Below, piece by piece: positions 27,905-29,053 of a stretch of 32,529 bases of DNA; position 1 is the first letter of the stretch, and each line of letters begins with the position of its first letter. Both the position numbers and the translations under genes were made by a program. The notes beneath the pieces were generated by a model that worked only from the letters and a program-made list of their open reading frames with translations, had not been told where the DNA came from and made no database searches. The stretch comes from Candidatus Bathyarchaeota archaeon (GTDB lineage: Archaea; Thermoproteota; Bathyarchaeia; Bathyarchaeales; DTEX01). The DNA lies in NCBI GenBank assembly GCA_018396555.1, contig JAGTQL010000007.1:1-32529 (forward strand). Direction: 5' to 3'.

Positions 27905-28417
27905 CTACTTCTCACCAGCGAATTTCAGCCTTTTCATTTCATATTCTTCCCATTTCATATACTCTTTTGCGGGTATTCCCTTAACCACAGTTCCAGCCTT
28001 AACGTTTCTTGTCACTATGCTTCCAGCAGCTATAACTGCATTTTCCTCTACTACTATATTTGGCATTATTACTGCACATCCTCCGATTATAACATTGTTC
28101 TTTATTACTGGCGGCGTTACCTGCTTGCTTACCGGATATTTATCGTTTAAGATTGATACGTTGGGCCCTATGAAGACATCGTCACCTATTCTACAGCCGT
28201 TTGATATTGTTACATGTGCTTGTATATTGCAGTTTTTCCCTATCTTAACATTCTTCCCTATATCGCAGAAGCTTCCAATTCTCGTGTTATCGCCTATTCG
28301 TGTGTTATCGCCGATTATAACATAGTTCCATATAATTACGCCAGAACCCAGCTGCACATTACTGCCCAGAATAATGCCTAAACCAAATCTAGGCTTAAGA
28401 TTTTCCAAATACGTCAC
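27905..28417 (-). CDS. Left-handed beta-helix N-acetyltransferase (WbpD-like)
   Basis: Hexapeptide repeats VIIGDNTRIGDNTRIGSFCDIGKNVKIGKNCNIQAHVTISNGCRIGDDVFIGPNVSILND; VIIGGCAVIMPNIVVEENAVIAAGSIVTRNVKAGTVVKGIPAKEY. Confidence 0.88.
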   Translation of the reverse strand: MTYLENLKPRFGLGIILGSNVQLGSGVIIWNYVIIGDNTRIGDNTRIGSFCDIGKNVKIGKNCNIQAHVTISNGCRIGDDVFIGPNVSILNDKYPVSKQVTPPVIKNNVIIGGCAVIMPNIVVEENAVIAAGSIVTRNVKAGTVVKGIPAKEYMKWEEYEMKRLKFAGEK

Positions 28418-28663
28418 GCTCGTAAATCATTATTTATAAAGGTGTTCATAAATTTCACTTATGAAACCTGTAGATGAGATCTTTCATTAGCAACAATGCC
28501 ACAACTGCTATGTCGATCAGCCGCCATAAAATGACGCGTGTAAAAAGAAATCCATAATCAGTATACAATCAATCATAGCGGAATTTTTATAAGAGAAGCA
28601 AAGGAACGGTCTGAGAAATTAAAAGTATCTATATTCCTTTAAAAATGGAAGGATTGAGATGCG

Positions 28664-28829
28664 GAACGTGGCAACTTAAGGATTTTTGAGCTTAAAATCG
28701 TTATGTGGTCGCGTATGCTGAAACAAAATTTTCTTTGTCGATTTAGTGAAAAGTCTAAATTTCAGGCTTTTCTCAGAATGATAAATAACGTTGTTTAAAT
28801 TCATAATACGGTCTTAAGTTGTCACGTCC
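28664..28829. mobile_element. MITE-like non-autonomous insertion: 17-bp TIRs (15/17 match) and perfect 8-bp TSD
   Basis: Left TSD GAGATGCG (28656-28663), left TIR GAACGTGGCAACTTAAG (28664-28680), right TIR CTTAAGTTGTCACGTCC (28813-28829; reverse complement GGACGTGACAACTTAAG), right TSD GAGATGCG (28830-28837). No ORF inside. Confidence 0.72.
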
Positions 28830-28891
28830 GAGATGCGAATAGTAAAGTTTAAATTTCCACTATGTTTCTTCTTCTCTGAGCGTGTGTCGTA

Positions 28892-29053
28892 TTGTCCAGC
28901 GCAGAAGAGGCTGAACTGCTCTACCAGTGCGTTAGATGCGGCGCAATAGTTAAGTCGTCTGAGCTTGAGCTTGGAATAAGATGCCCATACTGCAGATATA
29001 GGGTTCTGAGGAAAATTAGGCCACCTGTTGTTAAACGTGTTCAGGCAAGATAA
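28892..29053 (+). CDS. rpoP: DNA-directed RNA polymerase subunit P (Rpo12)
   Basis: TTG-start 53-aa ORF absent from the track: (M)SSAEEAELLYQCVRCGAIVKSSELELGIRCPYCRYRVLRKIRPPVVKRVQAR; YxCxxCG...IRCPYCxYRVLxKxRPPVVKxVxAR is the RpoP signature. Confidence 0.93.
   Translation: MSSAEEAELLYQCVRCGAIVKSSELELGIRCPYCRYRVLRKIRPPVVKRVQAR

Follow-up and report, generated by a model that had tools for sequence, protein, structure and literature searches.

What is the short sequence, bounded by inverted repeats, that separates the gene for RNA polymerase subunit P (rpoP) from a divergent acyltransferase gene, and which enzyme moved it there? The sequence was read directly from the window (the whole 32,529-nt stretch analysed). 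We identified further copies of it, target duplications, an empty site in a relative and, in the same genome, transposase genes with the same ends. The feature is almost certainly a 166-bp MITE mobilised in trans by the transposase of an archaeal IS6-like insertion sequence (IS) of about 720-730 bp, with which it has 17-bp ends in common. A preliminary description of this DNA had proposed a MITE from the pair of terminal inverted repeats (TIRs) and the direct repeat outside them, the hallmark of transposase-mobilised elements; the copies, the empty site and the IS with the same TIRs all agree with that reading.

Structure, copies and empty site

The sequence at 28656-28837 reads GAGATGCG / GAACGTGGCAACTTAAG ... 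CTTAAGTTGTCACGTCC / GAGATGCG, in the order duplication, TIR, TIR, duplication (Table 1). Direct reading bears out the described 15/17 match between the TIRs and the exact 8-bp direct repeat outside them, as well as the imperfect continuation of the inverted symmetry inward. The figure of 166 bp, given earlier for the interior, is the total length of the element. The description also saw no ORF inside, and indeed the longest is a 42-aa mechanical frame on the minus strand, which is not a credible gene. An exact 8-bp repeat abutting TIRs that match at no fewer than 15 of 17 positions, 80-1000 bp apart, was found once in the window and in none of 200 dinucleotide-preserving shuffles of it.

Table 1. 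Coordinates in the window of the element, its repeats and the neighbouring features.
Feature	Position	Strand	Basis
Hexapeptide-repeat acyltransferase (wbpD-like), divergent upstream neighbour	27905..28417	-	Pfam Hexapep, 4e-26
Left target-site duplication copy, 8 bp, GAGATGCG	28656..28663		Direct reading, flank comparison, single copy in G002
MITE, 166 bp, non-autonomous, no credible ORF	28664..28829		Multicopy, ends in common with the IS6-like IS
Left TIR, GAACGTGGCAACTTAAG	28664..28680	+	One mismatch to the IS TIR GGACGTGGCAACTTAAG
Right TIR, minus-strand reading GGACGTGACAACTTAAG	28813..28829	-	One mismatch to the IS TIR
Right target-site duplication copy, 8 bp, GAGATGCG	28830..28837		Direct reading, flank comparison
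Predicted rpoP core-promoter block, AATAGTAAAGTTTAAATTTC, BRE/TATA-like	28838..28857	+	Conserved in nearly all genus genomes; TTTAAATT at 28848-28855
rpoP (RNA polymerase subunit P), downstream neighbour	28892..29053	+	NCBIfam NF001608, E=2.4e-15, under the curated cut-off

Both neighbouring genes are as first named. Since they are divergent, the MITE sits in an upstream region common to both. The rpoP gene is conserved in all 11 genomes of the genus, and at the orthologous locus of one of them (G002) the element is absent and the target is present in single copy (GAGAGGTG). The acyltransferase-rpoP region of G002 can be aligned on both sides (TTGAGAGGTGAATAGTAAAG, compared with TTGAGATGCG-element-GAGATGCGAATAGTAAAG in the window), with 93% identity in the right flank and 88% in the left. 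One target copy without the element is the prediction of insertion, so this locus is the empty site that the preliminary description had suggested seeking in a relative. In a sister genome, G010, the contig with rpoP (C99, L060) stops at the last base of the target site, and a search of that genome for the flank upstream of the site did not find it.

The genome from which the window comes (G000; 1.74 Mb in 120 contigs, about 90% complete) contains four copies of the MITE, on C98 (the element studied), C29 (92%), C42 (87%) and C65 (75%), with E values from 1.4e-82 to 2.4e-17. Three intact and two broken copies occur at different sites in G010. The MITE was absent by DNA search from the other nine of the ten further genus genomes searched, and from all of ten additional genomes of the family, so that G000 and G010 are the only carriers among these. 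The copies adjoin unrelated genes. Multiple copies with different 8-bp flanks, proposed earlier as a check, are thus present in both genomes; the contrary outcome, a single-copy sequence, did not occur.

Two of the seven intact copies have an exact 8-bp target duplication (C98, GAGATGCG; C42, GAACAATT), and at two more (C68 and C59 of G010) seven of eight positions match. At the remaining three the duplications are just 6 bp long (C65 and G010 C11) or are not recognisable in the flanks (C29). A match of seven of eight was reached by only 5 of 552 mismatched flank pairings, in a control that enters one copy (L003) twice, as a locus and as an alignment row. The C29 copy is orthologous to one on G010 C79 (flanks about 97% identical on one side) and the C42 copy to one on G010 C85 (94% identity). 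Two insertions at orthologous sites indicate that the MITE family was active before the lineages of G000 and G010 split. The C79 orthologue (L027:1273-1651) is interrupted by sequence that, by eye, resembles part of another transposase gene.

Parent insertion sequence and transposase

A scan of G000 for the 17-bp end (GGACGTGGCAACTTAAG), allowing up to three mismatches, gave about 50 matches, and a control with the pattern reversed gave three. In G010, with up to two mismatches allowed, the corresponding counts were 55 and 0. The majority of these matches do not belong to the MITE. Among the ones inspected closely, most are IS ends, in which the left end leads into an ATG and the right end follows the stop of the ORF. 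A distance of about 250 bp or less separates many IS ends from a contig end, as would be expected of a multicopy IS at which the assembly broke.

Joining two contig ends across a 163-base overlap (four mismatches) gave an IS of 728 bp that encodes a 219-aa protein. A copy in G010 is 718 bp long and has one in-frame stop. Neither G000 nor G010 yielded a full-length, ORF-intact IS in one assembled piece. The family assignment is based on the ORF read from the two joined contig ends; an approximate transposase query (about half of the protein, from about residue 64, modelled on related transposases) was used solely for locating copies. The protein matches Pfam DDE_Tnp_IS240 (PF13610; E=1.2e-10, 42.1 bits, above the cut-off of 27), and its best NCBIfam model is IS6 (NF033587; E=1e-28, 100.4 bits, below the curated 125). 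The sequence ESAFPSLKQR in the ORF corresponds to the archaeal IS6 signature of the catalytic domain, E--F---K-R. The W---F motif of archaeal members was not seen at its exact spacing in the translated ORF (by eye). This motif does not define IS6 as such (PMC6807381), and the parent is accordingly named IS6-like.

The preliminary description had attributed the element to a DDE transposase, advised looking for a longer IS with the same TIRs and left the parent family unnamed. The IS with the same ends does encode a DDE transposase, and such a longer, transposase-bearing IS of about 720-730 bp was found, its 728-bp version being joined from two contig ends. We infer from the 17-bp ends that this archaeal IS6-like element is the parent, and the MITE is probably mobilised by its transposase. 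Ends are common to MITE and IS (including a 16-bp exact stretch), and the interiors have nothing substantial in common.

Internally deleted copies of the IS are also present. An 8-bp duplication (GTTTTGCG) flanks the one on C33, and duplications matching at 8/8 positions flank those at L039, L045 and L093 of G010; several others are without a target duplication. These copies are apparent intermediates on a path from the IS to a short element. Examples with 7-9-bp duplications are L013:1501-2020 (C33), L021:1501-1848 (C46) and, in G010, L039, L045 and L046; lengths are 348-520 bp in G000 and 372-387 bp in G010.

We identified a second MITE family of 167 bp (L071:180-346 on C23 and L072:172-338 on C41), with ends of the same type (AGACGTGGCAACTTAAG) and an unrelated interior. 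Its C23 copy is flanked by an exact duplication, TGTCAAAG. Thus, two or more MITE families probably depend on a single transposase. A separate locus (L073:76-1636 on C12) carries a pair of TIR-like ends spaced about 1.56 kb, each bordered on its outer side by the same sequence (TCGCTTCTCTCCAT). The inverted repeat therefore runs past the ends, and this is not a simple IS copy.

The rpoP promoter and rival explanations

The block AATAGTAAAGTTTAAATTTC begins directly after the right duplication, and the rpoP start is 54 bp past the end of that duplication. The position of the block and the archaeal promoter consensus suggest that it is the BRE/TATA promoter element of rpoP. Because the MITE lies just upstream of the block, sequence further upstream is shifted by 174 bp and the core promoter is left intact. 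It had been suggested that the element may carry or displace the rpoP promoter. For the core promoter, comparison across the genus led to rejection of this idea: the block does not overlap the element and can be recognised ahead of rpoP in nearly all genus genomes.

A putative subtler effect is that the MITE was co-opted and alters expression of rpoP or the acyltransferase, for example through replacement of an upstream activator sequence or provision of a second TATA box. Insertion immediately upstream of the conserved BRE/TATA block fits this idea, TTTAAATT occurs also inside the MITE (near 28795), and bacterial MITEs with promoter activity are known (PMC10969869). We nevertheless consider co-option very unlikely, given that the core promoter is intact, that the internal TATA-like string is present in most MITE copies whatever the neighbour, and that such strings are common in an A+T-rich region. 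There is a slender chance that the MITE persists on account of an effect on transcription in the promoter region between the divergent rpoP and acyltransferase genes; if so, it would be an archaeal MITE with a putative regulatory role at a core RNA-polymerase gene. A different proposal is that the MITE derives from another transposase family and that the likeness of its ends to those of the IS6-like element is coincidental. It draws on the unrelated interiors, which leave the link to about 17 bp per end and the common 8-bp duplication size. It is highly improbable, as no more than one mismatch separates the 17-bp ends of MITE and IS, the reversed pattern gave 3 matches against about 50, and 8-9-bp duplications around internally deleted copies of the IS show use of these very ends.

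Least probable of all, with hardly any chance of being correct, is that the element is a structured RNA or rpoP leader that merely resembles a MITE. It abuts rpoP, and both strands fold better than shuffled sequences (z of -4.9 and -4.2), but the TIR stem forms the main and strongest helix, which would be true of any MITE. The conserved covariation named in the preliminary description as a contrary outcome is negligible here: in the consensus fold of seven aligned copies the covariation term is +0.58 and compensation is seen at 2 of 46 pairs, and an Rfam search of the MITE gave no match. A structured RNA was rejected on these grounds (folding of both strands, the consensus fold and Rfam). The location of copies beside unrelated genes, and the absence of the element from the G002 rpoP locus and, by DNA search, from the nine genus genomes besides G000 and G010, also count against it; the multicopy state and the empty site largely refute it.

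Route of movement and known systems

In the proposed mechanism, the transposase would bind the ends of the MITE and cleave the 3' strands, which would be joined to the target with an 8-bp stagger to give the GAGATGCG duplication. At rpoP, insertion took place just upstream of the core promoter, which stayed intact. IS6-family insertion produces 8-bp duplications, and characterised members pass through cointegrates (PMC7986276). If the parent is like the characterised IS6/IS26, movement would be replicative (via a cointegrate), followed by homologous resolution between molecules that would leave the new copy flanked by the duplication. This route is transferred to the archaeal element by analogy with characterised IS6 members. 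Deletions or inversions are the expected outcome of IS6-type transposition within one molecule. Because such intramolecular replicative movement would rearrange the chromosome, the intact duplications at chromosomal MITE copies suggest intermolecular events (e.g., between chromosome copies or from a plasmid), or may point to another route.

A 2021 review of IS6 counts only two IS6-family MITEs, of 227 and 336 bp (PMC7986276); the IS6-family MITEs named in ISfinder are MITEBth2 and MITEHarch3 (PMC6807381). Compared by description, these are like the present MITE in having two IS6-type ends and no transposase, together with the 8-bp duplications typical of IS6-family insertions. The present MITE differs in its shorter length (166 bp), host lineage and TIR sequence. 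In part of the archaeal clades, IS6-family elements are 700-750 bp long (PMC7986276). Harmer and Hall, who give the E--F---K-R signature for archaeal members, dispute their placement in IS6 and consider that they may form a separate family (PMC6807381). The parent resembles archaeal IS6-family elements in its length (about 720-730 bp), its E--F---K-R transposase, its 8-bp duplications and its TIR (GG at the start, G at position 7, no G10, at least 17 bp). Unlike them, it is below the NCBIfam IS6 equivalog cut-off and does not have W---F in the exact spacing described.

A MITE-parent pair of the archaeal IS6-like group, with an empty site and duplications, is thereby added to a class with two counted MITEs (PMC7986276). 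Apart from this pairing and the question of movement, the locus is a tidy case of ordinary genome biology. The Sulfolobus MITEs SM1-SM4 have parents from IS families other than IS6-like. They too are multicopy archaeal MITEs dependent on resident insertion sequences, and their copy number is far higher, at 25 to 44 per family (PMC10969869).
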